Shown here: positions 6,416 through 25,331 of the stretch, piece by piece
Layout of the letters: each line of letters begins with the position of its first letter
Position numbering within the stretch: the stretch's first letter is position 1
DNA from: a virus
DNA length: 25,331 nt
Virus record (IMG/VR): IMGVR_UViG_3300046028_004452
Coordinates: 1-25,331 of that record
Direction: 5' to 3' (one strand)
Made by a program: the position numbers and the translations under genes
The notes under the pieces: generated by a model
Seen by the model: the letters and a program-made list of their open reading frames with translations, nothing else
What the model was told of the DNA's origin: nothing
Database searches by the model: none

Positions 6416-7250
6416 TTTACAGGCACAATATACACCCATGCCACGTAGTATAGGGCAGCCAGCTACTATGTTGTATGTGAAAGCTATTGATGTGGCGGCA
6501 AGCACACAGGCACTTAATGTTACCCGTCTTGTTAAGGCGGATAACCTTTGTTTGCGCTTGCAAGCGAATTGCAGCTATGCGAATGTATCATATTTGAGGG
6601 TATGGGATAGTCTTAGTGTACTAATGCCTGTATTGGGCGATACCGCACATAGTACAGCATTACGTATGGACATGAAGCGGCTTGTAGCTGGTACTGATTC
6701 AGGCACAGTAACATACTTTAGGGATAGCATGAGGAGCGATGGTTCAAGTGGGCATATCAATACTAACTTTGCCATGCCTACGGGTAATTTTCAATATCAC
6801 TTTTCAAACTACATTAATACCGCCGCATTAAAACCATCAGGCACAACGCAGCCATTTGACATGGGGGGTAGTGATGCTGCAACAGGCTTTAACGCCGCAT
6901 GGTGTATAAGGGGCGGTATTGCTACGGCAAGCTTAGTTAGTTCACGTTTACAGTTATATGAGGGTACGTTAGTAGTTAACTACGATACATCTATTGCAAG
7001 TAATGGCATGTGGGTTAATACTGCTTTAGCAGGTACAATGAACAGGATATTTATGAAAAACGGCGTTAGTGTTGATACCCGTACAAGGTCAGGCAGTACA
7101 TCTTATACCATTGGCAATTTATTGATATTCCGAACGGGGACAACAGGCACAGTACGCTCTACCCGTGCAACAAGAGGAGTTACAGCAGGGGTAGCAATTA
7201 CATCAGTACAGGCGGTCAGTTTAACTAATGCTTTTAGAAACAGTAAATAA
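6372..7250 (+). CDS. putative secreted fibre-associated or adhesin protein, 292 aa
   Basis: I chose the ATG at 6372 because it gives a clean Sec signal peptide (MRIYTLILLLIIGTNLQAQ) and a 44-base overlap with the fibre gene. A longer frame opening at 6246 would add 42 residues that merely shadow the fibre gene. After the signal the protein is beta-strand-rich with many Thr/Ser/Gly, 'LRVWDSLSVL', 'YEGTLVVNYD', and a C-terminal 'MNRIFMKNG...LLIFR' then 'GVAITSVQAVSLTNAFRNSK' that recalls lectin-like ends of phage structural proteins. I do not recognise a named family. The position directly after the fibre gene suggests a fibre partner or a second receptor-binding protein. Confidence 0.5.
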   Translation: MRIYTLILLLIIGTNLQAQYTPMPRSIGQPATMLYVKAIDVAASTQALNVTRLVKADNLCLRLQANCSYANVSYLRVWDSLSVLMPVLGDTAHSTALRMDMKRLVAGTDSGTVTYFRDSMRSDGSSGHINTNFAMPTGNFQYHFSNYINTAALKPSGTTQPFDMGGSDAATGFNAAWCIRGGIATASLVSSRLQLYEGTLVVNYDTSIASNGMWVNTALAGTMNRIFMKNGVSVDTRTRSGSTSYTIGNLLIFRTGTTGTVRSTRATRGVTAGVAITSVQAVSLTNAFRNSK

Positions 7251-7510
7251 TGAAAACACTATTACTACTTATTGCATACGGGGCTATACCTTACTATCAT
7301 GTGCCTGCATGGTTTGACAATAAAATGTCAGGCAAATGCACAATGTTTGAGGGCGCTAAGTCTTGTTATTTTGCAAGCGTGGACACATTGGATAGGCGAA
7401 TGATAGGCGTACGGTACAGGCAATGTTTCCCTGCTGAATTTGATAGCCTGTTCAAAGTGTGGAATGACACAAGCGTTTACTACTTAACTATCGAAAATTT
7501 CGTAAGGTGA
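7250..7510 (+). CDS. small unknown protein with N-terminal hydrophobic segment
   Basis: An 86-aa protein beginning at the ATG of TAATG and overlapping the next start by one base (TGATG). It begins with MKTLLLLIAYGAIPYYH, a probable signal peptide or anchor. Two cysteines (CTMFEGAKSCYF) lie 10 residues apart and could form a disulphide after export; a third lies in 'YRQCFPAEFD'. It is the third gene in a row with an export-type N-terminus. No family recognised. It sits between the fibre genes and the lysis genes, so it could belong to either group. Confidence 0.45.
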   Translation: MKTLLLLIAYGAIPYYHVPAWFDNKMSGKCTMFEGAKSCYFASVDTLDRRMIGVRYRQCFPAEFDSLFKVWNDTSVYYLTIENFVR

Positions 7511-7746
7511 TGGGAAACAACGAAAAAGAACAATTACTTATTGAAGTAAAGTCGGCAAATATGCCGCTAGTGCGCTGGGTGATAGGTGGCAGCGCTGGTG
7601 TAATAGCTTCTGTGTTGTGGGCTACTATGTACCTCAGCAATGTTCTGTATGACATTAACACCCTAAAGCAATGGAAGGCTGAGACACAGCCAAAAATAGA
7701 AATAATGAATACGCAAATAGCGATTTTAAACAGCAAAAATAAATAG
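7510..7746 (+). CDS. small membrane protein of the lysis cassette (holin/antiholin-like)
   Basis: A 78-aa protein. The ATG at 7510 overlaps the preceding stop by one base; a GTG at 7507 would only add one residue. Charged N-terminus (residues 1-20), one transmembrane helix at about 21-45 ('WVIGGSAGVIASVLWATMYL'), then a hydrophilic helix with heptad-like hydrophobics ('LKQWKAETQPKIEIMNTQI') that could form a coiled coil. A small one-helix protein placed directly before a two-helix holin-like protein suggests a lysis regulator or a subunit of the lysis pore. No family assignment is possible from sequence alone. Confidence 0.45.
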   Translation: MGNNEKEQLLIEVKSANMPLVRWVIGGSAGVIASVLWATMYLSNVLYDINTLKQWKAETQPKIEIMNTQIAILNSKNK

Positions 7747-12016: not shown

Positions 12017-12412
12017 GTGGAAGTTACAATCAAGCTGGACACCAGCCTACCGACCGACGTCGCCCATTTACAACAGCTCGCTAACGCCTTTGACGGCTCA
12101 GTGGTAGCGAAGCCTGCGCCAGAGGTGCCGAAGAAAACAACCGTTAAACCTGATCCGCAGGCACCTGCCAAAGAGGTGAAGGCCGAGACTGCGGAGACAG
12201 CGGAAACGCCAGCACCGGCAGAAAAGCCCAATGCTAAGACTGGCAGCGAACGTGTGACCATCGTCGAGGTACGGGCAGAGTGCGGCAAAAAGGTGAACGC
12301 AGACTGCGTAGCCGTATTTAAGAAAATGGGCTTTGATGGTCTGAGCAAAATACCTGCTGAGAGTCTCGCAGAAGCGTTGGAACTCATAAAAGCCCTACCT
12401 AACAAAGCATGA
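12017..12412 (+). CDS. unknown phage protein with low-complexity linker and SAP/Rho-N-like C-terminus
   Basis: A 131-aa protein started at GTG 12017 (no in-frame ATG gives the conserved N-terminus), preceded by an A-rich leader. Residues 1-35 form a short domain ('VTIKLDTSLPTDVAHLQQLANAF'), residues about 36-75 are a Pro/Ala/Glu/Lys/Thr-rich linker. Residues about 78-131 contain 'VTIVEVRAECGKKVNADCVAVFKKMGFDGLSKIPAESLAEALELIKAL'-type helices that resemble small helical modules seen in phage recombination genes near DUF2800. It overlaps the nuclease gene by 4 bases, so it likely works with it. Function is unknown. Confidence 0.5.
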   Translation: MEVTIKLDTSLPTDVAHLQQLANAFDGSVVAKPAPEVPKKTTVKPDPQAPAKEVKAETAETAETPAPAEKPNAKTGSERVTIVEVRAECGKKVNADCVAVFKKMGFDGLSKIPAESLAEALELIKALPNKA

Positions 12413-13620
12413 CCAGTAAACACGCCATATTAGGTCCGTCGTCTGCCTCGAAGTGGCTGGCCTGCCCTCCGTCTGCACGGCTGGAGATGCAGTTCAACCG
12501 CTCGAGCAGCGAGGCGGCAGACGAGGGCACGCTTGCGCACTCCATCGGGGAGCTTATAATCGCACACCGCAGTAAGGCGATCACGGGTAAGAAGTACCGT
12601 GAGCAGCTCGCCATCTACGAGCAGGACCCGTTGTACAACAAAGCTATGTATGAGTACTGCGACGCTTACGCCATCTACGTATTGGAGCAGCTCGCTGAGG
12701 CGAGAGCCACTACCCCGGATGCACAACTGTTCACAGAGCAAAAACTTAGCTGTGCCGCATACATACCTGAGGGCTTCGGCACGCTGGACAATGTAATAGT
12801 GGCTGACGGTGTGCTCAGAGTGATAGACCTGAAGTATGGCAAGGGCGTGGCGGTGTCCTGCGTGGACAACCCGCAGCTAAAGATATACGCGCTGGCCGCG
12901 CTGGCTGAGTACGACTACCTGTACGACATACACACCATACAGATGCACATCTATCAGCCGCGTATGAACAACATAAGCGTGCACGAAATGACTTATGTAG
13001 CACTGAAGGTGTGGGCAGAGAATGTGCTGGTGCCGACTGCTGCGCTGGCGTTCAAAGGTGAGGGCGAGTACGCTGCAGGTAAACACTGCCAGTTTTGTAA
13101 AGCTAAGACTACCTGCCGCGCAAACGCTGAGTACCAGGTGCAGATAGCGCAAATGGACTTCGCTGAAGTGATGAACCCTGAAATCGAGCTATTGCTATCT
13201 GCAACACCGCTACTTACTGACAACGAGGTAGCAGCCATACTTAGCCGGGCTGAGGCGTTTACCAACTGGGTGAAAAGCGTGAAAGATTATGCGCTGGAGC
13301 AAGCATTGAAAGGCAAGAAGTGGCCTGAATTTAAACTGGTAGCGGGTAAAAGTATGCGCAAGATCACCGACGCACCGGCTATACAGAAACTTATCATTAA
13401 AGAAGGCTACGACCGCATCAAGCTGTTCAAGCCGCAGGAGATGGTAGGTATCACCGCTCTGGAAGAACTGACAGGCAAGAAGTTCTTCGACGAGAAGCTG
13501 GCGCAATACACCATCAAAGCGCCGGGAGCGCCTGCACTGGTAGACAAAGCAGACAAGCGACCGGAGTTCAACAACCCTACCGACGACTTTGCCTCTATAG
13601 TACCAGACGAATTAGGATAG
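12409..13620 (+). CDS. DUF2800 protein, Cas4/AddB-like PD-(D/E)XK nuclease with Fe-S cysteines
   Basis: A 403-aa protein of the DUF2800 family. It opens with 'LGPSSASKWLACPPSARLE' (Cys19). Nuclease motifs follow: 'TEQKLS' around residue 110, 'GTLDNVIV' with Asp127, 'VIDLKYGKG' with Asp140 and Lys142, and 'NPQLKIYAL' with Gln156. Three further cysteines (227, 230, 236; C-x2-C-x5-C) together with Cys19 give the one-plus-three spacing of the 4Fe-4S cluster in Cas4/AddB-type nucleases. These enzymes cut single-stranded or processed DNA ends during replication and recombination. It is the first gene of the familiar phage DUF2800-DUF2815-PolA module, and it is coupled to the 131-aa gene upstream. 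Confidence 0.85.
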   Translation: MTSKHAILGPSSASKWLACPPSARLEMQFNRSSSEAADEGTLAHSIGELIIAHRSKAITGKKYREQLAIYEQDPLYNKAMYEYCDAYAIYVLEQLAEARATTPDAQLFTEQKLSCAAYIPEGFGTLDNVIVADGVLRVIDLKYGKGVAVSCVDNPQLKIYALAALAEYDYLYDIHTIQMHIYQPRMNNISVHEMTYVALKVWAENVLVPTAALAFKGEGEYAAGKHCQFCKAKTTCRANAEYQVQIAQMDFAEVMNPEIELLLSATPLLTDNEVAAILSRAEAFTNWVKSVKDYALEQALKGKKWPEFKLVAGKSMRKITDAPAIQKLIIKEGYDRIKLFKPQEMVGITALEELTGKKFFDEKLAQYTIKAPGAPALVDKADKRPEFNNPTDDFASIVPDELG

Positions 13621-13654
13621 TTAATTTTTATATAACCTTTAAAAACAAAACAAA

Positions 13655-14254
13655 ATGGCAGAAACATTCAGCACTAAAGTGCTATTGCAAAACGTGCGCT
13701 TTTCGTATGCGCATCTATTCGTACCGACCGCTATGCGCCCCGGTCTACCCGAGAAATACAGCCTGTGTGTGCTGATACCCAAGGAGGGTAAAGGCGCAGC
13801 AGAGAACAAGAAGGCTATCGATGCCGTGATCGCCCACCTGTCTGAGACGGTGAAGGCAGACAAGAAGAACAAGGGCAAACTGCCCAGAGACTTTGACATC
13901 TGCATGCGTGATGGCGACGATGATGGTGTGGTAGACGATAAGGGCGAAGCCTACGCAGGCCACTGGTATGTCAACGCTAAGAGTGACGCGAAGCCGAGCG
14001 TAGTAGGCACGCAGAAGGACGAGAACGGTAAGTACAAGTCGTTAGCATCCGACGATGTAAAGAGCGGTGACTACGGACACGTAACTATCAACTTCTTCGC
14101 CTACGACACAGCTGGTAACACTGGTATAGGTGCCGGACTGAACAACGTAATGAAGACACGCGATGGCGAGTCACTGGCAGGCAGAGCATCAGCAGACAGC
14201 GACTTCGCAGATGTAGACGTGGACGGCTCAGACAGCGACGACGATTTAGGTTAA
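13655..14254 (+). CDS. DUF2815 protein, ssDNA-binding-like
   Basis: A 199-aa protein of the DUF2815 family ('LLQNVRFSYAHLFVPTA', 'PEKYSLCVLIPKE', 'GHWYVNAKSDAKPSVV', 'DDVKSGDYGHVTINFFAYD'), beta-rich and compatible with the OB fold proposed for this group. The C-terminal about 20 residues are strongly acidic (Asp/Ser with Gly at the end), like the tails by which SSB and T7 gp2.5 recruit partner enzymes. Gene context between the DUF2800 nuclease and DNA polymerase supports a single-stranded DNA-binding role in replication and recombination. A 34-base A-rich leader precedes the ATG and a terminator-like hairpin follows the gene. Confidence 0.8.
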   Translation: MAETFSTKVLLQNVRFSYAHLFVPTAMRPGLPEKYSLCVLIPKEGKGAAENKKAIDAVIAHLSETVKADKKNKGKLPRDFDICMRDGDDDGVVDDKGEAYAGHWYVNAKSDAKPSVVGTQKDENGKYKSLASDDVKSGDYGHVTINFFAYDTAGNTGIGAGLNNVMKTRDGESLAGRASADSDFADVDVDGSDSDDDLG

Positions 14255-15303: not shown

Positions 15304-15755
15304 AAAGCCAACAATTATTTACACGAAATGAAGTAGTTGCACTTATTGATAAATTGATGGAGTGTGGCGATGTGGTTATGGATGCCATAACATCAGAGAA
15401 CCCCGACCATGATGGAGAGGGGCTACTCGAAATAGCGGAGAGTTATTTGGAAGACTCGGAAATGGAAAACTCAGGAGTAAAACTAATAGCAATTGAGCGC
15501 CGCGAGCAAATAGAAAAGCACGGCAGAACATTGGAGCGTGATGATATTGAAAATGCAGCAGGGGAGCTTGCTTTGGGAGCAGAAATGCTATTAGCCGTTG
15601 AGCATGAGGAGGGAATTGACCAGGAAAGCTACCCGGGAGGGTGGGACAAGGAAATGTGCCTACGAATGATAAATAAACCACAAATAGAACGCTTGATTAT
15701 TGCAGGAGCATTAATAGCCGCCGAAATAGATAGGTTGAGTCCAAGCCAATGTTAA
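15300..15755 (+). CDS. phage protein of the 'ERxxQIxxHGRT' type (151 aa)
   Basis: A 151-aa acidic protein. The C-terminal two thirds show the recurrent phage pattern 'AIERREQIEKHGRTLERDD', 'AAGELALGAEMLL', a 'PGGWD' turn and the final helix 'RLIIAGALIAAEIDRL'. This family is widespread in phage replication regions, often unnamed; the acidic helical layout recalls MazG-like nucleotide pyrophosphohydrolases, but I cannot confirm catalysis. Residues 1-55 look like a separate acidic helical unit. The gene is noticeably AT-richer than its neighbours, suggesting separate acquisition. It overlaps the polymerase ORF by 7 bases if the first ATG of that gene is used. Confidence 0.5.
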   Translation: MKSQQLFTRNEVVALIDKLMECGDVVMDAITSENPDHDGEGLLEIAESYLEDSEMENSGVKLIAIERREQIEKHGRTLERDDIENAAGELALGAEMLLAVEHEEGIDQESYPGGWDKEMCLRMINKPQIERLIIAGALIAAEIDRLSPSQC

Positions 15756-18658
15756 ATAGGCGTATAGCCGCTACAATAACCCCCACACACATGCCTCGCA
15801 AACTATCCATAGACATAGAAACCTACAGCAGCTACGACCTGTCAGAAGTGGGCGTATACAAGTACGTAGAGTCTCCCGACTTCGCTATACTGCTGTTCGC
15901 CTATGCCTTTGATAACGAGCCTGCGCAAGTGGTAGACCTCGCAAGCGGTGAAAAGCTGCCTGATGATGTGGCAGACGCGCTCAGTGGGTATGACGATGTC
16001 GAGCTGTGCGCCCATAACGCAGCCTTTGAACGGGTGTGTATAGACAAGTACTTCGGGCATAAGACCGACATAGCGCAGTGGCATTGCACTATGGTACATG
16101 CCTCTATGCTGGGGCTACCACTGGCACTCGGTCAGGTTGCTAAGGTGTTGAAGTTGGTAGACCAGAAGGATGCAAGGGGTAAACTGCTGATACGCACATA
16201 CTGTGGACCGCGTAAGCCGACCAAGAACAATAGCAGCCTGCGTAACCTGCCAACCGACGAGCCGGATAAATGGGCTGAGTTCATAGAGTACTGCCGTCAG
16301 GACGTAGTGGTAGAGCGGAATATCCGCAACAAAATAGCGTGGTACGAGATACCGCAGACTGAGCGTGAGCTTTACTGCCTTGACCAGAAGATAAACGATA
16401 CCGGCGTACTGCTGGACATACCCTTCATAGAGAACGCAATACGCATAGATGCAGACTACCGCGCACGGCTGGAGAAAGAAGCTGTAGAGCTGACAGGGCT
16501 GGACAATCCTAACAGTGTGGCGCAGCTCAAGAAATGGCTGGAGCAAGAGACCGGCGACACTATAGAGAAGTTGACCAAGGACACAGTTACGCAGTTGCTC
16601 GGGAACGATAACAGCGAACGGGTAGACAGGCTGCTCACCATAAGGCAGGAGATGTCTAAAACGTCTAACAAGAAATACCATGCTATGCTGGCAGGTGTGT
16701 GCGCAGACGGTCGTTTCCGTGGACTGTTCCAGTTCTACGGAGCTAACCGCACAGGGCGGTGGGCTGGCAGGCTGGTACAGGTGCAGAACCTGCCTAAGAA
16801 CAAAATAGAGGGTGACGACCTCGACTTTGCTCGCAGACTGGTGGCAGAGGGCGACGGTGAAGGGCTTGAGTTCTTTTACGGCAACGTGCCTGATACGCTC
16901 TCACAGCTTATACGGACTGCATTTATCGCGCCGACGGGTAACAAGCTCAGGGTGTGCGACTTCAGCGCAGGAGAGGCACGGGTAATAGCGTGGCTGGCTA
17001 AAGAGAAATGGCGCATGGACGTGTTCGCTACACACGGTAAGATATATGAGGCCTCAGCATCGCAGATGTTCAAAGTGCCCATAGAGACTATAGCAAAGGG
17101 CCGCGAGAACTACGAACTGAGGTCTAAGGGTAAAATCGCTGAGCTTGCCTGCGGCTTCGGCGGGGGCGTAGGCGCACTGGAGGCAATGGGCGCACTTAAA
17201 ATGGGCCTTGACAAGAAGGATTTGCAACCGCTGATAACAGCGTGGCGGCTTGCAAACCCTAACATAGTACTGTTCTGGAAGGCTATGGAGACAGCGGCGA
17301 TAACCGCCGTAGAGACAGGAGAAAAGCAGTCTTTGCAGTTTGGTATCAGCTTCCATGTTCGCAATAGTGTGCTGTTCATGACCTTGCCGAGCGGACGGCA
17401 GCTCGGTTACATGCGTCCAAAGCTATCACCGGGCAAGTATGGCGACAGTCTGAGCTATGAAGGTATGAACCAGACAACTAAGCAGTGGCAGCGTGAGGAC
17501 ACATACGGCGGCAAGTTGGTGGAGAACTGCCTCGGCGCTAATACTCTTGTACTGACGAAAACAGGGTGGGTGCGCATAGTAGATGTTAGCCCAACCGACA
17601 TGGTTTGGGATGGGGTTGAATGGGTTAGCCACGAGGGGCTAATAGACAAAGGGGAGCAAATAACGATAACACTTAACGGCATACACATAACACCAGAACA
17701 TGGCATACTCACTACTGAAGGTTGGAAGACCGCATCATCGAGCCAAGGATATTACGGGCAAGACTGTAAACTTGCTGACTGCAATTTCTTACGCAGGCTC
17801 AGACGGGGCAAAGTCGGTGTGGTTAGTTCGTTGCGACTGCGGGGCAGAAAAGCTAATGGCCGCAACGGAGTTCAACAAAGGCAAAATAAGGTCCTGCGGC
17901 TGTCGAAAAGATATAGCGATAGGCGAAGCGGCAACTACGCACGGTATGTCCAGTCATCCGGCCTATGCCGTTTGGCGCTCAATGATCGACCGTTGCAAAC
18001 TCCCGACGCACCAGGCCTGGGCAAATTACGGCGGTCGCGGAATATCCGTCTGCGAAAGGTGGCAAATAGGGTTTCCCGAATTTTGGACGGACATGGGGAC
18101 TACTTACAAACGGGGGTTATCCATAGAACGCAAGGACGTGAACGGAAACTACAGCCCGGAAAACTGCGTATGGGCCACCTGGCTAAAGCAAGGTCGAAAC
18201 AAAAGGAACAACCGTCGCATAGATACGCCGTGGGGCGACATGACTGTGAGCGAAGCCGCAGAGCAGTCGGGTATAGGGGTGACAACGTTGCTATACAGGC
18301 TTGCGCATGGGGTAGCCCCGGAGCAATTATTCTCGGTACCGGACACAGCCAACCGGTTTACGACCTAAAAAATACGGGCCCTCTGCACAGGTTTACGGTA
18401 CTGTCTAATACTGGTCCGATTATAGTTCACAACTGCGTGCAGGCTACACAACGGGACTGGCTGGCGTTTGCCCTACTGAGCGTGGACAAAGCGGGCTATT
18501 CTATAGCGCTGCACGTACACGACGAGGTTGTTACCGACGTACCAGAGACCTTTGGCAGCGTGGCTGACCTTGAGCGTGTAATGACAGAGCCGATACCGTG
18601 GGCAGCAGGACTGCCATTGAAGGCAGAAGGGTTTGAGAGTACTTACTACAAAAAATAA
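15749..18658 (+). CDS. family A DNA polymerase with 3'-5' exonuclease, interrupted by an intein
   Basis: The 969-aa precursor contains 667 aa of polymerase and a 302-aa intein. The exonuclease domain shows 'LSIDIET' (Asp22, Glu24), 'AHNAAFE' and 'YCRQDVV'. The polymerase domain has 'GRWAGRLVQVQNLPK', motif A 'DFSAGEAR' (Asp404), motif B around Arg458, Lys460 and Lys462 with 'GFGGG', and motif C 'HVHDEV' (His924-Asp925-Glu926). Excision of residues 594-895 rejoins VEN to CVQATQRD, the normal helix before motif C. The enzyme would replicate the phage genome. The ATG at 15791 (residue 15), next to the conserved exonuclease start, is a strong alternative start. The region 17700-18368 also encodes an endonuclease in the +1 frame. 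Confidence 0.9.
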   Translation: MLNRRIAATITPTHMPRKLSIDIETYSSYDLSEVGVYKYVESPDFAILLFAYAFDNEPAQVVDLASGEKLPDDVADALSGYDDVELCAHNAAFERVCIDKYFGHKTDIAQWHCTMVHASMLGLPLALGQVAKVLKLVDQKDARGKLLIRTYCGPRKPTKNNSSLRNLPTDEPDKWAEFIEYCRQDVVVERNIRNKIAWYEIPQTERELYCLDQKINDTGVLLDIPFIENAIRIDADYRARLEKEAVELTGLDNPNSVAQLKKWLEQETGDTIEKLTKDTVTQLLGNDNSERVDRLLTIRQEMSKTSNKKYHAMLAGVCADGRFRGLFQFYGANRTGRWAGRLVQVQNLPKNKIEGDDLDFARRLVAEGDGEGLEFFYGNVPDTLSQLIRTAFIAPTGNKLRVCDFSAGEARVIAWLAKEKWRMDVFATHGKIYEASASQMFKVPIETIAKGRENYELRSKGKIAELACGFGGGVGALEAMGALKMGLDKKDLQPLITAWRLANPNIVLFWKAMETAAITAVETGEKQSLQFGISFHVRNSVLFMTLPSGRQLGYMRPKLSPGKYGDSLSYEGMNQTTKQWQREDTYGGKLVENCLGANTLVLTKTGWVRIVDVSPTDMVWDGVEWVSHEGLIDKGEQITITLNGIHITPEHGILTTEGWKTASSSQGYYGQDCKLADCNFLRRLRRGKVGVVSSLRLRGRKANGRNGVQQRQNKVLRLSKRYSDRRSGNYARYVQSSGLCRLALNDRPLQTPDAPGLGKLRRSRNIRLRKVANRVSRILDGHGDYLQTGVIHRTQGRERKLQPGKLRMGHLAKARSKQKEQPSHRYAVGRHDCERSRRAVGYRGDNVAIQACAWGSPGAIILGTGHSQPVYDLKNTGPLHRFTVLSNTGPIIVHNCVQATQRDWLAFALLSVDKAGYSIALHVHDEVVTDVPETFGSVADLERVMTEPIPWAAGLPLKAEGFESTYYKK
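17528..18433 (+). other. intein in the DNA polymerase (Hint splicing domain, in frame)
   Basis: The in-frame insert runs from Cys594 (TGC at 17528) to Asn895 (AAC at 18431-18433) and is followed by Cys896 of the C-extein. Splicing block A is 'CLGANTLVLTKTGWV', block B 'HITPEHGIL' with the T-x-x-H histidine at 17699-17701, block F 'PVYDLKNTG' and block G 'GPIIVHN' followed by Cys. All residues needed for a class 1 intein are present: Cys1, block-B Thr/His, penultimate His, last Asn and the +1 Cys. About 200 residues between 'EGWKTA' and 'QPVYDL' are basic and unlike any endonuclease domain, because that DNA encodes the nuclease in another frame. The Hint parts alone form a mini-intein of about 100-105 residues. 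Confidence 0.9.
17700..18368 (+). CDS. HNH-like homing endonuclease nested out of frame inside the intein
   Basis: A 222-aa frame shifted +1 relative to the polymerase/intein frame. From about residue 16 it reads as a typical phage-borne HNH-type nuclease: 'DITGKTVNLLTAISYAGSD', a zinc-binding C-x-C pair (Cys45, Cys47) and second pair (Cys66, Cys68), 'THGMS', 'NYGGRGISVC' (109-118), 'IERKDVNGNYSPENCVWAT' (142-160), 'RNKRNN', and a C-terminal helix-turn-helix tail ('TVSEAAEQSGIGVTTLLYRL'). Its ATG overlaps the block-B histidine codon and its TAA overlaps the codons of VYDL. The leader is A/C-rich like other starts in the window. The true start may lie a few codons inside. It would cut intein-less polymerase alleles and so mobilise the intein. 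Confidence 0.75.
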   Translation: MAYSLLKVGRPHHRAKDITGKTVNLLTAISYAGSDGAKSVWLVRCDCGAEKLMAATEFNKGKIRSCGCRKDIAIGEAATTHGMSSHPAYAVWRSMIDRCKLPTHQAWANYGGRGISVCERWQIGFPEFWTDMGTTYKRGLSIERKDVNGNYSPENCVWATWLKQGRNKRNNRRIDTPWGDMTVSEAAEQSGIGVTTLLYRLAHGVAPEQLFSVPDTANRFTT

Positions 18659-18672
18659 AAACACATAAAACT

Positions 18673-19173
18673 ATGCAACCATTCAACTTGGAGAAAGCCC
18701 TTGCAGGCGCACCGCTTGTTACCCGTGATGGGAGAGAAGTAACATCATTTGAGGCTCCCGCAGATGCCGGAAGTGTGTTCCCTTACCTTGCGCTTGCCGA
18801 TGGGATACGTGGCCGTGTATGGGTTACACCGCAAGGAAGATACAACGAAACCGATGTTGACCACCATTTAGATCTATTCATGGTCGCTAACGGCTTCGTT
18901 GACAAGATAGAACCCACTCCCTCGATACTCGAGCAGGCGCAGAAACTTATCTACGGCGACAGGCAAGCGGACTACGGCAGTGTTACGACCAATTTCACCA
19001 ACATAGCAAAGGGCTGGGAGGTTATTCTGGGCGGCAAGGTGACACCGGAGCAGGTAGGCCTCTGCATGGCGTGGGTGAAGATAGCCCGACAGAGCAACAA
19101 GCCTAAACACGACAATCTCGTAGACATAGCCGGTTACATCGGTTGTATTGACAAATTAAAAAAGGGGGAATAG
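18673..19173 (+). CDS. two-part phage protein with C-terminal DUF6378-like domain
   Basis: A 166-aa protein. Residues about 1-78 ('PFNLEKALAGAPLVTRDGREV', 'VWVTPQGRYNE', 'HLDLFM') match a small stand-alone phage family of unknown function. Residues about 84-163 match DUF6378 ('ILEQAQKLIYGDRQADYGS', 'NFTNIAKGWEVILG', 'VTPEQVGLCMAWVKIARQSNKPKHDNLVDIAGY'), a helical domain widespread in phage replication regions. Here both are joined in one chain. The acidic helix pattern with 'DNLVDIAGY' resembles MazG-like or dUTPase-like all-alpha folds, so a nucleotide-related role is possible but unproven. It follows the polymerase by 14 bases and has an A-rich leader. Confidence 0.6.
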   Translation: MQPFNLEKALAGAPLVTRDGREVTSFEAPADAGSVFPYLALADGIRGRVWVTPQGRYNETDVDHHLDLFMVANGFVDKIEPTPSILEQAQKLIYGDRQADYGSVTTNFTNIAKGWEVILGGKVTPEQVGLCMAWVKIARQSNKPKHDNLVDIAGYIGCIDKLKKGE

Positions 19174-19219
19174 TCCTCTATTACCCGAATTGCGGACCAG
19201 GTTAACACACAACTTACTA

Positions 19220-21688
19220 ATGCCCATAGAACTAATACACGATGGACCGCTCGACCTCGCCACTGGCAGGAACCGGCACGAGAGCAACTGGAAGAACAAA
19301 GTAAGTAGCTGGGGTGCGCTGCTCAAAAAGCTGGCTACTACTCAGCGGACAACGGAGAGCTACGCCGAGTACCTGAACACCAAGAAGCCCCGACAGGACG
19401 AGATAAAAGACGTTGGCGGGTTCGTGGGCGGCTACCTTGCTGGCGGTAAACGTGGCAAGGGTACTGTGAACTACAGGCAGCTTGTAACCCTTGATGTGGA
19501 CTTCGCGCCGCCGGGGATATGGGACGACCTTATGCTGATGTGGGGCTGCGCTGCTGCGGTCTACTCCACACACAAGCACAGCCCGGACAAGCCCCGACTA
19601 CGCCTGCTGATACCGCTTGACAGGCAGGTACTTTGCGACGAGTACTGCGCTATATCACGACGCATAGCGGGCACACTCGGTATAGAGTACTTCGATGATA
19701 CCACCTACCAGCCTGAGCGGCTGATGTACTGGCCTTCTACCTCGAAAGACGGGGAGTACCTGTTCGAGTACCAGGACGGGGAGTGGCTCTCTGCTGACGA
19801 GATGCTTAGCAGCTACCGTGACTGGAAGGATAGCAGCGAGTGGCCGGTAAGCGACCGAGAGGGTACTGTGCTTATGCGGGCCATGAAGAAGGCGGGCGAC
19901 CCGCTGGACAAGCAGGGCGTAGTAGGTGCCTTCTGCCGGACCTTCACCATACACGATGCCATAAGTACCTACCTGTCTGACGTATACACGCCCTGCGACA
20001 TAGAAGGCCGCTACTCCTACGTAGATGGCACTACCTCTGCTGGCCTTATCACCTACGACGACAAATACGCATACTCCCACCACGGCACTGACCCTGTGAG
20101 CATGAGACTGTGCAACGCCTTCGACATTGTGCGTATCCACCTGTTCGGGCTCAAGGACGAGAACGTAAGAGCGGACACACCTGTCAACCGGACGCCTTCA
20201 CACCTTGCCATGGAAGACCTCGCCCGCAAGGACGCAAGGGTGCGCAAGCTGATCGTAAGCGAGAAGATACAGAGCGCACATGACGATTTTGCTGGTATAG
20301 AGGACGAGGATACTGGCAGTCTGGACGATAAGGAGCCGGTAAACGACGACTGGCAGGGCGACCTCGACTGCGACCGTAAGGGCACTATCTACAGCACGAT
20401 TGCTAACATGGTGCTTATACTGGAGAACGACCCGAGGCTGAAGGGCAAGTTTGCACTCAACGAGTTTGACCAGCGCGAGGTGTTGAAAGGCACCGTGCCG
20501 TGGCGCAAGTTCAACCCGAGCAAAACGCATGTAACCGACAAAGATGTGTCGCACCTACGGCACTACTTCGAGAAGTCTTACGGTATATCGTCTGCTCCGA
20601 AGCTGGAGGATGCGTTCAGGGTGATACTCGACAAGAACCAATACCACCCGGTTAAGGACTACCTGAGCGCGCAGGTGTGGGATGGCGAAAAGCGCATAGA
20701 TACGCTGCTTACCGACTACCTCGGTGTGACGGACAGCCCGTACACCCGTGCAATCATTCGCAAGACACTGGCAGCAGCGGTAACACGCATTTTTAACCCC
20801 GGTTGTAAGTTCGACTACGTGCTGACCCTTATAGGCGACCAGGGGCTCAAGAAAAGCACACTTATAGACAAGCTGGGCGTAGACTGGTTCTCGGACAGCT
20901 TTACGACCGTGCAAGGTAAGGAGGCCTACGAGCAACTGCAAGGCGCGTGGATACTCGAGATAGCAGAGCTGTCCGGTATGCGACGTGCTGACGTGGAGAC
21001 GGTGAAACACTTTATAACCAAGCGGAAGGACCGCTACCGTGTGTCCTACGGGCGACGTATAGAGGAGTTCCTGCGGCAGTGCATCTTCGTAGCTACTACC
21101 AACGATAAACGGCCCTTGCGTGACGCTACAGGCGGGCGTAGGTTCTGGCCTGCTGAGGTCCACGCTGTACCACCTGCTATGGATGTAACCGACCTGACAC
21201 CGGACGTAGTAGGGCAGATATGGGCTGAGGCGGTACTGCTGTACAAGAGCCGTGAGCCTCTCTACCTGTCCCCTGAGCTGGAGGCGATAGCTGCACAGGT
21301 GCAGGCTGACCACACCGACATAGACGAGCGTGTAGGCATGATACAGGCCTACCTTGACAAGCTGCTGCCGGAGGACTGGGACGAGCGCGACGTGTTCGCG
21401 CGCAGAGCGTGGCTGCATGGCGACGAGCTACAGGCAGGCGGCACGGTGAAGCGTAACCGGGTGTGTGCGGTAGAGCTGTGTGTGGAGTGCCTGGGCTGGC
21501 GTAAACAAGATGTGGACCGCAGCAGTACCAGAGAGATACACGACATGATGCGTTTCATACCGGGCTGGAAGGCCAGTAAAAGCAAATTACAATTCGGCGA
21601 GTACGGCACACTGAAGGGGTACGTAAGAGAGGATGCCCCTATGACCCGATACACACCTGTCTCTGACTTCGATACAATAATGAATTAA
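19220..21688 (+). CDS. primase-helicase: prim-pol-like N-terminus and virulence-associated E (VapE) ATPase
   Basis: I take the ATG at 19220 (822 aa); ten more upstream codons would need a TTG start. The N-terminal region has a prim-pol-like signature: 'LVTLDVDFAPP' with Asp92 and Asp94, then 'VYSTHKHSPDKPRLRLLIPL' with the conserved His and Arg. The C-terminal half is a VapE/D5-like superfamily 3 helicase: Walker A 'GDQGLKKST' (539-547, Lys545), 'GAWILEIAELSGM' as Walker B, then 'FITKRKDRYRVSYGR' and the sensor 'CIFVATTNDKRPLRDATGGRRFWP'. It would prime and unwind DNA for the PolA enzyme two genes upstream, matching the known phage module order. Confidence 0.85.
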   Translation: MPIELIHDGPLDLATGRNRHESNWKNKVSSWGALLKKLATTQRTTESYAEYLNTKKPRQDEIKDVGGFVGGYLAGGKRGKGTVNYRQLVTLDVDFAPPGIWDDLMLMWGCAAAVYSTHKHSPDKPRLRLLIPLDRQVLCDEYCAISRRIAGTLGIEYFDDTTYQPERLMYWPSTSKDGEYLFEYQDGEWLSADEMLSSYRDWKDSSEWPVSDREGTVLMRAMKKAGDPLDKQGVVGAFCRTFTIHDAISTYLSDVYTPCDIEGRYSYVDGTTSAGLITYDDKYAYSHHGTDPVSMRLCNAFDIVRIHLFGLKDENVRADTPVNRTPSHLAMEDLARKDARVRKLIVSEKIQSAHDDFAGIEDEDTGSLDDKEPVNDDWQGDLDCDRKGTIYSTIANMVLILENDPRLKGKFALNEFDQREVLKGTVPWRKFNPSKTHVTDKDVSHLRHYFEKSYGISSAPKLEDAFRVILDKNQYHPVKDYLSAQVWDGEKRIDTLLTDYLGVTDSPYTRAIIRKTLAAAVTRIFNPGCKFDYVLTLIGDQGLKKSTLIDKLGVDWFSDSFTTVQGKEAYEQLQGAWILEIAELSGMRRADVETVKHFITKRKDRYRVSYGRRIEEFLRQCIFVATTNDKRPLRDATGGRRFWPAEVHAVPPAMDVTDLTPDVVGQIWAEAVLLYKSREPLYLSPELEAIAAQVQADHTDIDERVGMIQAYLDKLLPEDWDERDVFARRAWLHGDELQAGGTVKRNRVCAVELCVECLGWRKQDVDRSSTREIHDMMRFIPGWKASKSKLQFGEYGTLKGYVREDAPMTRYTPVSDFDTIMN

Positions 21689-21698
21689 AAACACAACC

Positions 21699-22073
21699 AT
21701 GACAAAATTCACAACGCAATCAGGAGAATATTTAGCGGTGGGAGTGCCTGATGGGGCTACCGAAGAAATAGACCTGATAGCCGAAAATGAAATTGCATTT
21801 CGTATAAAAAACCCAGATGAAGATAGCCGACCTGATGATTTTATTTCAAAATACATCAGTTTACCCGACGGACACTACACCCTAATCGCCACCACTCCAC
21901 TAACCGAAGAACAGGCGGAAGAGATAGTGTCAAATAACGGCATGGGCTGCTACGATAATTACAGGTTGAAAAAGGACAACAAATACACCTGCACAACCGC
22001 ATTACAATCATTTAATTGTTTACTTCACACCGCAGGAATAAAAGGTCGGGTGGCAATACTGAAGGTATTATGA
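21699..22073 (+). CDS. unknown acidic protein in AT-rich gene cluster (124 aa)
   Basis: A 124-aa protein after an A/C-rich leader ('AAAACACAACC' before ATG). It is mostly strand and turn forming, with 'ISLPDGHYTLIATTPLTEEQAEEIV' and a Cys-containing C-terminal helix ('CTTALQSFNCLLHTAGI'). Small acidic proteins of this shape occur in many Bacteroidota phages and sometimes counter host defences, but nothing here identifies a function. The gene and the four following ones are AT-richer than the helicase before and the nuclease after. It ends in an ATGA overlap with the next gene. Confidence 0.5.
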   Translation: MTKFTTQSGEYLAVGVPDGATEEIDLIAENEIAFRIKNPDEDSRPDDFISKYISLPDGHYTLIATTPLTEEQAEEIVSNNGMGCYDNYRLKKDNKYTCTTALQSFNCLLHTAGIKGRVAILKVL

Positions 22074-22282
22074 ATTACGAAAATGAAGTAAGAAAAGTTT
22101 ACCCGATAAGGTCAGACATAGACTGTTCGTTTTATTGGAACAAATACGGTAAAGAAAACCTTTGGCATGTAGATGTGGTAGACTACGATAAAAAAAGAAT
22201 GGTATGTATAGGCAAAGGATTGTTTAAAGCTGTGGCATGGAAAAACGCTTATGAAAATCTTAAAAAACAAGTTAAGATATGA
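22070..22282 (+). CDS. unknown small protein (70 aa)
   Basis: The start at 22070 overlaps the preceding stop by four bases; the longer frame from 22016 overlaps that gene and is unlikely. The 70-aa protein has 'YGKENLWHVDVVDYDKKRMVCIGKGLFKAVAWKNAYENL', a strand-strand-helix arrangement that could be a small dsRBD- or DUF-like fold, and ends in Lys. It is coupled to the next gene by ATGA. No family recognised. Confidence 0.45.
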   Translation: MNYENEVRKVYPIRSDIDCSFYWNKYGKENLWHVDVVDYDKKRMVCIGKGLFKAVAWKNAYENLKKQVKI

Positions 22283-22488
22283 CACAAACCGAAGCAATCC
22301 GCAAAGAACATCTATTTGAATTGTGGCTTTACAAAAATTATAAGCCTAATCCTAAAAAAGAAGGATGGTATATAGACAAGGTTGCAAGGGGGGCTGAGTC
22401 TACAAAGGAAGGTGCAAAAAACCAGTTCGACATTATATACCCGATAATGGAAGAAAATAACGATTTGCATTTGATAACTGGAAAGTAA
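22279..22488 (+). CDS. unknown small protein (69 aa), possibly shortened at its C-terminus
   Basis: A 69-aa protein coupled upstream by ATGA. 'LFELWLYKNYKPNPKKEGWYIDKVARGAESTKEGAKNQFDIIYPIMEEN' suggests a helical, charged small protein. It stops at TAA 22486, and the same frame continues for another 25 codons to a TGA that overlaps the next start codon as ATGA. All other joints in this gene cluster are such overlaps, so the present stop may be a mutation that truncated a longer protein of about 95 aa. Confidence 0.45.
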   Translation: MTQTEAIRKEHLFELWLYKNYKPNPKKEGWYIDKVARGAESTKEGAKNQFDIIYPIMEENNDLHLITGK

Positions 22489-22566
22489 TTATCATTCTCC
22501 CCCGACATTACTCCGCTACTTATGGCGATGGCAGATGGGGTGGAGATTTTAAAAACTTATAAATGA
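22489..22566 (+). other. in-frame extension after the stop of the 69-aa gene
   Basis: The reading frame of the preceding gene continues open from 22489 to TGA 22564-22566, encoding 25 residues rich in 'SFSPDITPLLMAMADG' and ending 'EILKTYK'. The final ATGA overlaps the ATG of the next gene, as everywhere else in this cluster. It is either a decayed 3' end, a read-through extension, or a tiny separate ORF starting at the ATG of 22522. Confidence 0.35.
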
Positions 22567-22805
22567 ACTACGAAACACAACTAACAGAATTAGCCGAGAA
22601 GATGGCACGGGAACACTTTGGAGCATTTTATACCACCAACCACGTTTACATCGAAATGTGCCGCCCCTTTGCCGCCATAGCCTTAGCGTTTACGGCTGAG
22701 AAGGTGAGAAAGTCACTCATAGACCACAATGAACCAAATGACGATGCAATTGAAGGGTATTTAATAAACAGCGGATTAATACCACATCCTTTGCCGCATA
22801 AATGA
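22563..22805 (+). CDS. unknown small protein (80 aa)
   Basis: An 80-aa, largely helical protein ('TQLTELAEKMAREHFGAFY', 'RPFAAIALAFTAEKVRKSLIDHNEP', 'AIEGYLINSGLIP'). The pattern of helix, Asn-rich turn and a helix ending 'GYLINSGLI' occurs in small phage proteins; I cannot name the family. It is linked to the neighbours by ATGA on both sides. Confidence 0.45.
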   Translation: MNYETQLTELAEKMAREHFGAFYTTNHVYIEMCRPFAAIALAFTAEKVRKSLIDHNEPNDDAIEGYLINSGLIPHPLPHK

Positions 22806-22885
22806 GGGAAACACTTAGTAAAACATTTATGTTGACAGACATAGAGATTGAACAATATTTAAAACAACAGGGATTTATTAACTGA
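22802..22885 (+). CDS. mini-ORF of 27 aa coupled to its neighbour
   Basis: A short frame beginning at the ATG of an ATGA overlap with the preceding gene and ending at TGA 22883-22885, four bases before the next gene's ATG. The predicted peptide is charged and helical ('MLTDIEIEQYLKQQGFIN'). The exact fit into the gap, with the same coupling as the other genes, argues that it is translated, but its size makes this uncertain. The C-terminal 'IEQYLKQQGFIN' resembles the 'IEGYLINSGLI' end of the previous gene, so it might be a duplicate remnant. Confidence 0.35.
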   Translation: MRETLSKTFMLTDIEIEQYLKQQGFIN

Positions 22886-22889
22886 CAAC

Positions 22890-23177
22890 ATGACCGAAAA
22901 ACTGATAGACGATAAGCTTGTAAGAGGGGTGAAGGCTCTGGGCGGTATAGCCTTGAAAATGATATGCCTGTCCTTCACCGGGCTGCCTGACCGCACTGTG
23001 CTGCTACCGGGTGGGCGTGTATGCTTCGCTGAGCTGAAGACAACCGGTAAGAAGCCAAGCCCCCGGCAGGTGACGGTAATCGCCTTCCTGCGTAAACTGG
23101 GGTTTACTGTCTACGTTATAGACGATCAGGCGGGATTAGATAACTTTTTTAACGAAATAAACCGTGCTCAGTCTTAA
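22890..23177 (+). CDS. VRR-NUC domain nuclease
   Basis: A 95-aa stand-alone VRR-NUC (virus-type replication-repair nuclease) protein. Core motifs are 'GLPDRTVLLPGGRVCFAELKTTGKKPSPRQ' type: Asp34, Glu48-x-Lys50 and Gln60, the PD-(D/E)XK catalytic set. Such enzymes are Holliday-junction or flap nucleases used by phages during replication and recombination. The stand-alone small form is the usual one in phage modules with VapE and SNF2 genes, as here. It overlaps the methyltransferase by 14 bases. Confidence 0.8.
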   Translation: MTEKLIDDKLVRGVKALGGIALKMICLSFTGLPDRTVLLPGGRVCFAELKTTGKKPSPRQVTVIAFLRKLGFTVYVIDDQAGLDNFFNEINRAQS

Positions 23178-23910
23178 CGAAATATACAACATGGACTGCC
23201 TCGAAGGCTTGAAACTGCTACCTGATAAGTCGGTAGATATGGTATTGTGTGACCTGCCCTACGGTACTACTCAGTGCAAGTGGGACACCATTATACCATT
23301 TGATAAGCTGTGGGTGCAGTACGAGCGTGTCATTAAAGACAATGGGGCTATTGTACTGACTGCCGCCCAGCCTTTTACCAGTGCTCTTACACTAAGCAAT
23401 TTAACCTTATTCAAGTATTCTCTCGTTTGGCGAAAATCAACGGTTCAGCACTTTGCTCAGGCACCTTACAGGTTTCTAACTATCCACGAGGATATTGTCG
23501 TTTTCAGTAAAGGCGGCACATCTAAAAATGCCAATAACCGGATGGTTTATAACCCTCAAAACTTAATAGACTGTCATAGGGTAGTGAGAGGTAAAGGGCA
23601 CAGCGATCACCGCCCAAGCACGAAAAAACAGAGTGACTACCTACAAACCAAAACCGGATATCCGAAAAGCATACTTGAGTTTAACTCTGACCTCGCTACG
23701 CTACACCCAACTCAGAAGCCCGTCGCCCTGTTTGAATACCTTATAAAGACCTACACGAACCCCGGCAACCTGGTGCTCGATAACTGCATGGGCAGCGGCA
23801 CAACCGCAATAGCATGTATCAACACTGGTAGAAACTTCATAGGTTTTGAACAAGATAAAGATTACTTCAAAATAGCGAGTGATCGCATACTCGATAAAAT
23901 ATTAGGATGA
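23164..23910 (+). CDS. DNA methyltransferase (N6-adenine/N4-cytosine type)
   Basis: A 248-aa protein with GTG start at 23164; the family's standard N-terminus 'LNEIYNMDCLEGLKLLPDKSVD' begins right there, which decides the start. Motif IV is 'DLPYG' (residues 30-34, a DPPY variant), motif X-like 'HPTQKPVALFEYLI' and motif I 'DNCMGSGTTAIAC' (206-218) with 'FIGFE' (motif II). The order IV before I marks a beta-class methyltransferase. No restriction enzyme is adjacent, so it is an orphan modification enzyme that would protect phage DNA against host restriction or take part in regulation. Overlaps VRR-NUC by 14 bases and the next ATG by 4. Confidence 0.85.
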   Translation: MLSLNEIYNMDCLEGLKLLPDKSVDMVLCDLPYGTTQCKWDTIIPFDKLWVQYERVIKDNGAIVLTAAQPFTSALTLSNLTLFKYSLVWRKSTVQHFAQAPYRFLTIHEDIVVFSKGGTSKNANNRMVYNPQNLIDCHRVVRGKGHSDHRPSTKKQSDYLQTKTGYPKSILEFNSDLATLHPTQKPVALFEYLIKTYTNPGNLVLDNCMGSGTTAIACINTGRNFIGFEQDKDYFKIASDRILDKILG

Positions 23911-25331
23911 GAACCAAAGACGACTTACGCCCCTACCAGTGGCACGCTATCGAGCACGCTATCGACAACAAAGTTACCGACACTGCCTCGGCGGGGCTGC
24001 TGCTGGGCATCGGTCTCGGTAAGACTGTGTCAACGCTTACCATCATCGACCATCTGAAGTACCACGACTACGCAATAGACAAAGTGCTTATCGTGGCTCC
24101 TAAGCGTGTAGCTGAGAGCGTGTGGCACACTGAGGCGAAGCTGTGGGAGCATCTTACGCACCTTACGTTCTCCCTGGTGCTCGGTGACGAGCGCAAACGC
24201 AAAGAAGCTCTGAAGGCAAAGGCTGACATCTATGTTATCAACCGGGAAAACGTGGTATGGTTGCAAGGCTTCTACGGTGGTTCCTTCCCGTTCGATATGC
24301 TGGTGATAGACGAGCTGTCCAGCTTCAAAAGCAACCAGTCTGCACGCTTCAAGGCTTTGCGGCTGGTGCTGCCGCTTATCAAACGAGTAATAGGGCTGAC
24401 CGGCACACCCATGCCTAACGGCCTGCTGGACCTGTGGCCGCAGGTGTTCCTGCTGGACCGTGGGCACAGGCTGGGTAAGACGATTAGCAGCTACCGGGAT
24501 AAGTACTTCAAGCCCGGCAAGCGTAACGGCCATGTGGTGTACAGCTATGACCTTATAAGGGATAAGAACGACGAGGTGCTGGGGCCTGACATCAACGAGC
24601 GCGAGATCTACGACAAGATAGGCGACATCTGCATATCTATGAAGGCCGAGGACTATCTGGACCTGCCTAAACGCACTGACCTGCTGGTGGAGATACCTAT
24701 GCCGGCAGACCTGCAGGCGAAGTATAAGGAGTTCGAGAAAACGTCGGTACTGGAGTTCCTGGACGGGTTGCAAGGTGGTGAGATAACGGCCATTAACGCG
24801 CCATCGCTGACTGGCAAGCTGCTGCAATTCGCTAACGGTGCTATTTACACAGGTGAGGGCAAGGGGCTGGACCGGGAGTTCTACGAGGTGCATAACCTGA
24901 AGATAGACGCGCTACGGGACGCACTGGAGGCTGCCAACGGTGACCCGTTGCTGATTATCTACCAGTTCCAGTCTGACGTGGCACGGATCAAGAAACACCT
25001 GAAGGAGTTTGACCCTTACCTTATGGACCCGAAGCATACCCTGCGAGATGTGGAGCGGTGGAACCGTAAGGAAATACCCGCTATGATGCTGCACGCTGCC
25101 AGTGGCGGACATGGTCTTAATATGCAGTTTGGCGGCCACCTTATGTACCACTTCGGGCGGGGCTGGTCCCGTGAGCTGTACGACCAGGTGATCGGCAGGG
25201 TGGACAGATCCGGCCAGGTGTTGCCGGTGTTTAACTGGGCCGCTGTGCTTAAAGGTTCTATGGACGACGAGGTGACAGCTACGCTGGCAGACAAGGGCAG
25301 ACGGCAGGACGGTATGATGTCAGCCGTTAAA
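23907..25331 (+). CDS. SNF2/DEAD-type DNA helicase, 3' end outside window
   Basis: The frame opens at ATG 23907, overlapping the methyltransferase stop (ATGA), and runs open for 475 codons to the last base, so the gene is partial. Helicase motifs visible are motif I 'GIGLGKT' (34-40), motif II 'DELS' (135-138), motif III 'LTGTPMPNG', and motifs V/VI with 'ASGGHGLNMQF' and 'QVIGRVDRSGQ' (427-437). Phage SNF2-type helicases of about 450-480 aa occupy exactly this place after VRR-NUC. Little of the protein should be missing, probably only the last residues. It would remodel or unwind DNA during replication or packaging initiation. Confidence 0.85.
   Translation, partial: MRTKDDLRPYQWHAIEHAIDNKVTDTASAGLLLGIGLGKTVSTLTIIDHLKYHDYAIDKVLIVAPKRVAESVWHTEAKLWEHLTHLTFSLVLGDERKRKEALKAKADIYVINRENVVWLQGFYGGSFPFDMLVIDELSSFKSNQSARFKALRLVLPLIKRVIGLTGTPMPNGLLDLWPQVFLLDRGHRLGKTISSYRDKYFKPGKRNGHVVYSYDLIRDKNDEVLGPDINEREIYDKIGDICISMKAEDYLDLPKRTDLLVEIPMPADLQAKYKEFEKTSVLEFLDGLQGGEITAINAPSLTGKLLQFANGAIYTGEGKGLDREFYEVHNLKIDALRDALEAANGDPLLIIYQFQSDVARIKKHLKEFDPYLMDPKHTLRDVERWNRKEIPAMMLHAASGGHGLNMQFGGHLMYHFGRGWSRELYDQVIGRVDRSGQVLPVFNWAAVLKGSMDDEVTATLADKGRRQDGMMSAVK

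Follow-up and report, generated by a model that had tools for sequence, protein, structure and literature searches.

The DNA analyzed here (hereafter the window) is a 25,331-base IMG/VR virus record, IMGVR_UViG_3300046028_004452, in which the gene of a phage family-A DNA polymerase (PolA) is interrupted by an intein that contains, in another reading frame, the open reading frame (ORF) of an HNH-type endonuclease. We propose, with a probability of about 0.88, that this locus is a mobile element, lying within the polymerase gene, in which two genes are superimposed. In the polymerase frame, the halves of a HINT domain would stand at both ends of the element, joined by a meaningless, stop-free linker of about 200 residues, and the intein would cut itself out after translation and join the polymerase halves. 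The same DNA read in the +1 frame would give the endonuclease. In relatives, the latter is probably started internally on the polymerase mRNA, from a Shine-Dalgarno sequence furnished by intein codons, as the position of this site suggests, and it may cut intein-less polymerase genes so that the element copies itself in. In the middle of the intein, the polymerase frame would be constrained only to avoid stops, all else being set by the nuclease protein. The features of the locus are listed below, with their support in brackets.

15749-18658, plus strand: phage family-A DNA polymerase precursor ORF, 969 residues (unbroken across the intein).
15749-17527, plus strand: N-extein, 593 residues, C-terminal end ...YGGKLVEN (joined-flank matches).
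17528-18433, plus strand: intein in the polymerase frame, 302 residues, C1 to H301 N302, precursor residues 594-895 (motifs, HINT fold).
17528-17737, plus strand: N-terminal splicing block of the intein, blocks A and B, with C1 and TPEH; coding in the polymerase frame only, up to the nuclease ORF (IntN profile).
17700-18368, plus strand: HNH-type endonuclease ORF, 222 residues, +1 frame, TAA at 18366-18368 (PHROG match, model).
17717-17721, plus strand: Shine-Dalgarno-like GAAGG, from the EGW codons of the intein (precedes the nuclease start in relatives).
17738-18352, plus strand: double-coded stretch, unstructured linker in the polymerase frame and nuclease in the +1 frame (stop counts, substitution phase).
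18353-18433, plus strand: C-terminal splicing block of the intein, blocks F and G, PVYDL...VHN, its 5' end overlapped by the nuclease ORF (IntC profile).
18434-18655, plus strand: C-extein, 74 residues, +1 Cys first, CVQATQRDWLAF (joined-flank matches, insertion-site survey).

A preliminary description, made from the sequence alone, had placed all the splicing blocks in the polymerase frame, and its coordinates and motifs were right: the PolA ORF, which matches Pfam DNA_pol_A (E = 7e-17) and PHROG_17 DNA polymerase (E = 6e-131), is open through 17528-18433. The intein motifs are CLGANT at the start, TPEH and PVYDL inside, and VHN|C at the end, so that C1, T55xxH58, H301 and N302 are followed by Cys as in class 1 (Cys1) inteins. 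C1, T55, H58 and N302 are invariant in 43 sequences, and H301 is nearly so. In the AlphaFold model of the intein, the ends reach a pLDDT (predicted local distance difference test score) of 92-98, and the middle, mostly below 50, is mostly disordered. These ends adopt the HINT fold, with Z 15.5 to the Mtu RecA intein (VIA-align; 115 residues, root-mean-square deviation 2.4). When the extein flanks were joined, 1437 of the 1586 matching phage records covered at least 80% of the query in one place; for example, Clostridioides phage phiCDKH02 matched 211 residues over 639 bases. As so many phage polymerases match the joined flanks without interruption, the boundaries of the insertion are supported. 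The insert lies in frame in a host protein that has homologues without it, and empty sites are common. Neither the intein nor the nuclease of the window was recognised by Pfam or NCBIfam. By sequence and fold, the insert is a class 1 intein; its splicing is predicted, and from the coordinates the spliced polymerase would count 593 + 74 = 667 residues.

The +1 frame had been described as an HNH-like nuclease with zinc cysteine pairs and an NGNYSPENC core, and this assignment was borne out by matches to PHROG HNH endonuclease families, among them PHROG_374 (E = 1.4e-58). The homology begins near 17733 (HHRAKD). Conservation in the nuclease family extends to the zinc cysteines (C45/C47/C66/C68) and to the NGNYSPENC core, and the window nuclease keeps every residue that is invariant across 36 relatives. 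Its model has a pLDDT of 86. The top structural neighbour is the HNH enzyme PacI, and since this resemblance reaches only Z 6.4 over 75 residues (VIA-align), the fold assignment of the nuclease is weak; a Foldseek search with the model gave no significant match. The best profile match, also weak (E 0.03), is I-HmuI, whose Asn positions align and whose DHKD is replaced by DRxD in the window nuclease.

One line of evidence for two superimposed genes comes from stop codons. In the stop test, the nuclease protein and its codon set were kept fixed and the codons were shuffled among synonymous positions. Over 69 non-redundant loci with the nuclease in the +1 frame (13,558 codons), the polymerase frame contained 0 stops vs 401 expected. 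The remaining frame, taken as a control, contained 777 vs 726 expected, which indicates that the shuffle is a fair null. For loci with the nuclease in the +2 frame, the polymerase frame again contained 0 stops (89 expected) and the remaining frame 339 (366 expected). In the window alone, 0 stops were found vs 6.3 expected (p = 1.5e-4, 20,000 shuffles), and the double openness of this stretch is not due to chance. Ten free-standing relatives of the nuclease showed stops near the expected density overall, BcepMigl being low (2 vs 6.5).

The phase of substitutions was examined in 29 pairs of related loci, some pairs having loci in common. At positions 1/2/3 of the polymerase codons, the exteins had substitution rates of.24/.20/.44 and the N-block of.17/.13/.36; the overlap had.35/.14/.11, and the C-block.11/.04/.25. 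The fast position in the overlap is position 3 of the nuclease codons. Thus, constraint at the protein level switches from polymerase to nuclease and back to polymerase within one ORF. Stop counts and substitution phase, together with the split relatives described below, point to two superimposed genes, with splicing needing just an open linker in the middle of the intein.

Relatives were collected by scans of viral and prokaryote contigs, of which those of viral contigs with one query sequence proved overly strict. This led to 154 distinct inteins, of which 100 had the nuclease in the +1 frame with the intein frame open and 31 had it in the +2 frame. Fourteen were mini-inteins of 109-183 residues without nuclease. 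Seven were +1 inteins without the C-block in frame (5 split, 2 cut by the contig end), one was split with five stops, and one was degenerate (L085). A complete in-frame nuclease, which the preliminary description had named as evidence that would count against its proposal, was found in 0 of the 154 distinct relatives. L085 (2800-3945) is a decayed copy of near-APSE type, the polymerase ORF of which is truncated shortly past the intein; its nuclease is broken, and one piece shifted into the intein frame is the sole trace of an in-frame nuclease that was seen.

The double ORF recurs in isolated phages of unrelated hosts. By tblastn, the nested pair was found in the Caulobacter phages RW, KcrB, RLK and GB2A, in several Hamiltonella APSE phages and in Shewanella phage SFCi1. 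In Pseudomonas phage MR14, Vibrio phage 97.13 and EBPR siphovirus 2, the intein occupies another polymerase site and the nuclease lies in the +2 frame. The inteins of this set are inserted in PolA at sites such as YGGKLVEN|C, GKVAELA|C, TGRWGG|C and AKT|C, and also in some other genes. Mini-inteins lacking the HNH gene occupy the same sites, and phages commonly carry free-standing relatives of the nuclease. These observations agree with the earlier suggestion that a stand-alone endonuclease gene invaded a mini-intein without fusing to it, and related PolA genes with an empty site, with a mini-intein and with the nested pair were all found. The preliminary description had also set the arrangement outside the standard intein classes. 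The nuclease is indeed out of frame; the locus is no one-off, as the arrangement is widespread and uses two frames. Since double coding is common to more than 100 relatives, it is a real, selected intein design and no sequencing error. How many times the +1 and +2 frames arose independently is uncertain from our quick nuclease tree.

On seven contigs, a single polymerase gene holds a pair of related inteins, and each intein has an out-of-frame HNH ORF to itself (L022, L158 (=L025), L138 (=L037), L148, L110 (=L042), L122 and L047). Among the combinations are a +2 intein upstream of a +1 intein, and a split intein beside a fused one. The nested type also occurs in genes that are not PolA-like (L140, L144, L150 and L169, Cys1 3001; L070, L081@4207; L184, L187), with the flanks VNAAAxLNKLLQxS|CGAVY, AAAKTQK|CLQIASGAAY and LDH|CGNYLRF.

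Six PolA-type inteins are split (L045@136, L047@1352, L110@1287, L122@1718, L142@3001 and L171@3001), with an HNH gene between and overlapping both halves, and with an ATG for the C-half in five of them. In L045, L047, L110 and L122 (site TGRWGG|C), the N-half ends in stops, the nuclease is in the +1 frame, and the C-half, in the third frame, has a conserved ATG, a purine-rich upstream sequence and the start MLVPVYDI. L142 (site YGGKLCEN|C) has the same split layout, with ATG immediately 5' of KVYDIL. L171 is split differently from the other five, and the start of its C-half is not clear. For these six, observed/expected stops in the N-half frame were 18/14, 12/9, 23/19, 13/13, 14/15 and 4/5.5, a total of 84 for about 75 expected, i.e., chance density. 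On L047, L045 and L110, the fused +1 inteins that accompany the split ones have zero stops. The stop-free constraint therefore vanishes once the polymerase need not be translated through the nuclease.

The arrangement forms a widespread class that uses either of two frames and grades into split inteins. Somewhat better than even, in our opinion, is the broader proposal that an HNH gene nested out of frame is the standard state in a large clade of phage inteins, in more than one frame, and that it offers a possible route from contiguous to split inteins. Along such a route, the C-half would acquire a start codon for itself, after which the nested stretch could tolerate stops and the gene would end up fractured. 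In this view, the direction of change would be from fused to split.

With regard to mobility, APSE-1 and contig L037 differ by 3% in the nuclease stretch compared and by about 17% in the N-extein, whereas L023 and L052 have nearly identical N-exteins and nuclease stretches that are 14.5% different. Both contrasts suggest lateral exchange, and homing would presumably proceed through cleavage.

Several points weigh against reading the locus as a mobile element in which two genes are superimposed. Splicing and cleavage are both predictions from sequence. The label HNH-like holds as to homology, and the first catalytic His of I-HmuI and of classical HNH enzymes aligns with Arg in the nuclease family; nuclease activity therefore rests on homology. 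Because the loci share ancestry, the stop totals are not independent trials, many loci nevertheless diverging to about 50% protein identity. Also, the loci examined are the best-scoring ones, with about 160 taken from among the 400 or so viral loci that matched. Finally, the window does not have the start with Shine-Dalgarno sequence that is conserved in its relatives, since the +202 position (17730-17732) is CCG.

This last point requires a closer look at expression. In relatives, the nuclease starts at fixed offsets from Cys1 (+202, +187 and +145), each with a Shine-Dalgarno sequence, which for the +202 start is supplied by the EGW codons of the intein. A canonical start with a Shine-Dalgarno sequence of at least 4 nucleotides is present in 104 of the 108 +1 nuclease loci. 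When such sites were counted by frame over a fixed stretch of the 108 loci, 96 loci had one in the nuclease frame, 41 in the polymerase frame and 22 in the third frame. In the window, the +187 position (17715) is CTG without Shine-Dalgarno sequence, and an upstream ATG is found at 17700, also without Shine-Dalgarno sequence. With the conserved start lost, the nuclease of the window phage may go unexpressed, or be produced at a low level from ATG 17700. For APSE-1, P46 (NC_000935; L003 3931-4353) is annotated about 80 codons short at its start, the full-length nuclease being opened by GTG with an AAAAGGG-type Shine-Dalgarno sequence.

The loss of the start gives weight to the possibility that the nuclease is already dead in the window phage, i.e., that an intact ORF whose initiation site was lost remains as a fossil endonuclease in the intein; this would place the locus early in the homing cycle, in which invasion is followed by decay and loss. 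The CCG at 17730 and the CTG at 17715 speak for it, the window being among about 4 of the 108 loci without canonical start and Shine-Dalgarno sequence. We consider it unlikely, although it is the alternative that survives best, as the 222-residue ORF is intact, all the residues invariant in the 36 relatives are kept, and an ATG stands upstream. The same lack of a good internal start could suggest that the nuclease is produced by ribosomal frameshifting from the polymerase frame, as an IntN-nuclease fusion without internal initiation, all the more so as the nuclease ORF is entered directly past block B. This is improbable given the start codons and Shine-Dalgarno sequences at fixed offsets in 104 of 108 relatives and their excess in the nuclease frame (96 loci, vs 41 and 22).

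One may also ask whether the polymerase-frame product of the middle of the intein has a function of its own, such as DNA binding or a third domain, so that both frames would be constrained as proteins. Its Arg-rich composition and its length of about 200 residues would allow it. However, this linker is predicted to be mostly disordered and has hardly any conserved columns, substitution rates follow the nuclease frame only, and mini-inteins exist without it, which makes such a function very improbable. Compensating indels, by which a sequencing or assembly error would mask an ordinary in-frame bifunctional intein, could produce this pattern in one sequence, yet the idea fails and was rejected because the same frame offset recurs in about 100 distinct sequences, complete isolate genomes included, with 0 stops vs 401 expected and no complete in-frame homologue. 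Group I introns with HNH genes are frequent in phage polymerase genes, but a self-splicing RNA intron with a homing endonuclease in a coincidentally open polymerase frame was likewise rejected as next to impossible, there being no Rfam match up to E 0.1 within 15500-19000, the intein motifs and HINT fold being present, and the polymerase frame being selected to stay open.

Among known systems, the canonical bifunctional inteins (PI-SceI, PI-PfuI) resemble the two-gene element in having an endonuclease enclosed by splicing blocks; it apparently occupies the usual insertion point, with block B on one side and block F on the other. Their endonuclease is in frame, whereas here it is in another frame and forms a separate polypeptide, the intein product containing only a disordered linker; the out-of-frame position of the nuclease thus rules out a canonical bifunctional intein. 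In APSE-1 (Hamiltonella phage, NC_000935), the same nested pair is present as the P45 polymerase with an intein and the overlapping P46 HNH endonuclease, with the difference that P46 is annotated from a later codon and that the record does not name P45 as an intein host. In fractured genes, reportedly described by Dassa et al. in 2009, a free-standing endonuclease gene separates the two halves of a naturally split intein. A separate endonuclease gene between intein halves is also the form of our six split relatives, whereas in the window and 131 open relatives the polymerase and the intein share a single uninterrupted ORF, with the overlap.

In our literature search on out-of-frame nucleases in inteins, the ShiLan domain was the only close precedent. 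It is an insertion in a mycobacteriophage DNA methylase with an out-of-frame HNH gene and a homing-like distribution; no splicing domain is detectable in it, and it presumably remains in the protein (PMC11855218, 2025). The window shares with it an out-of-frame HNH gene in an open host frame, and differs by having both intein halves, with splicing blocks and HINT fold. The ShiLan nuclease matched the nuclease profile of the window family marginally (E 0.027). The ShiLan methylase (L201, gp65, locus 4786-7668) also has an intein-like in-frame insertion, CLTADTEVLTDSGW ... FITGN|S. Thus, the arrangement is not as undescribed as first thought, since the overlap of P45 and P46 in APSE-1 was annotated and the out-of-frame HNH gene of ShiLan was already known. 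The ShiLan paper cites a 2025 preprint (bioRxiv 10.1101/2025.01.02.630785) whose title points to non-canonical architectures of actinobacteriophage inteins, perhaps with out-of-frame nucleases among them, and which may overlap with our observations.

The surroundings of the locus resemble the replication module of a temperate phage (9152-10336 on the minus strand, 12409-14254, 18673-25331), the neighbour genes being an integrase, an exonuclease, a Gp2.5-like single-stranded DNA-binding protein, PolA, a helicase/primase, a DNA methyltransferase and a helicase. Positions 1010-2308 of the window hold a baseplate hub gene.

In the usual picture of inteins, the splicing domain and the endonuclease are fused in frame. 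Here, the endonuclease is a separate protein and the intein frame need only avoid stop codons. Gene callers and intein surveys working on a single frame would log such loci as large inteins without nuclease. The locus is also a clean natural example of gene overlap, one of the frames being selected to stay open and nothing more, with internal controls in the third frame, the free-standing relatives and the split relatives. It opens two questions to testing, namely by what steps endonucleases enter and leave inteins, and what the origin of split inteins is.
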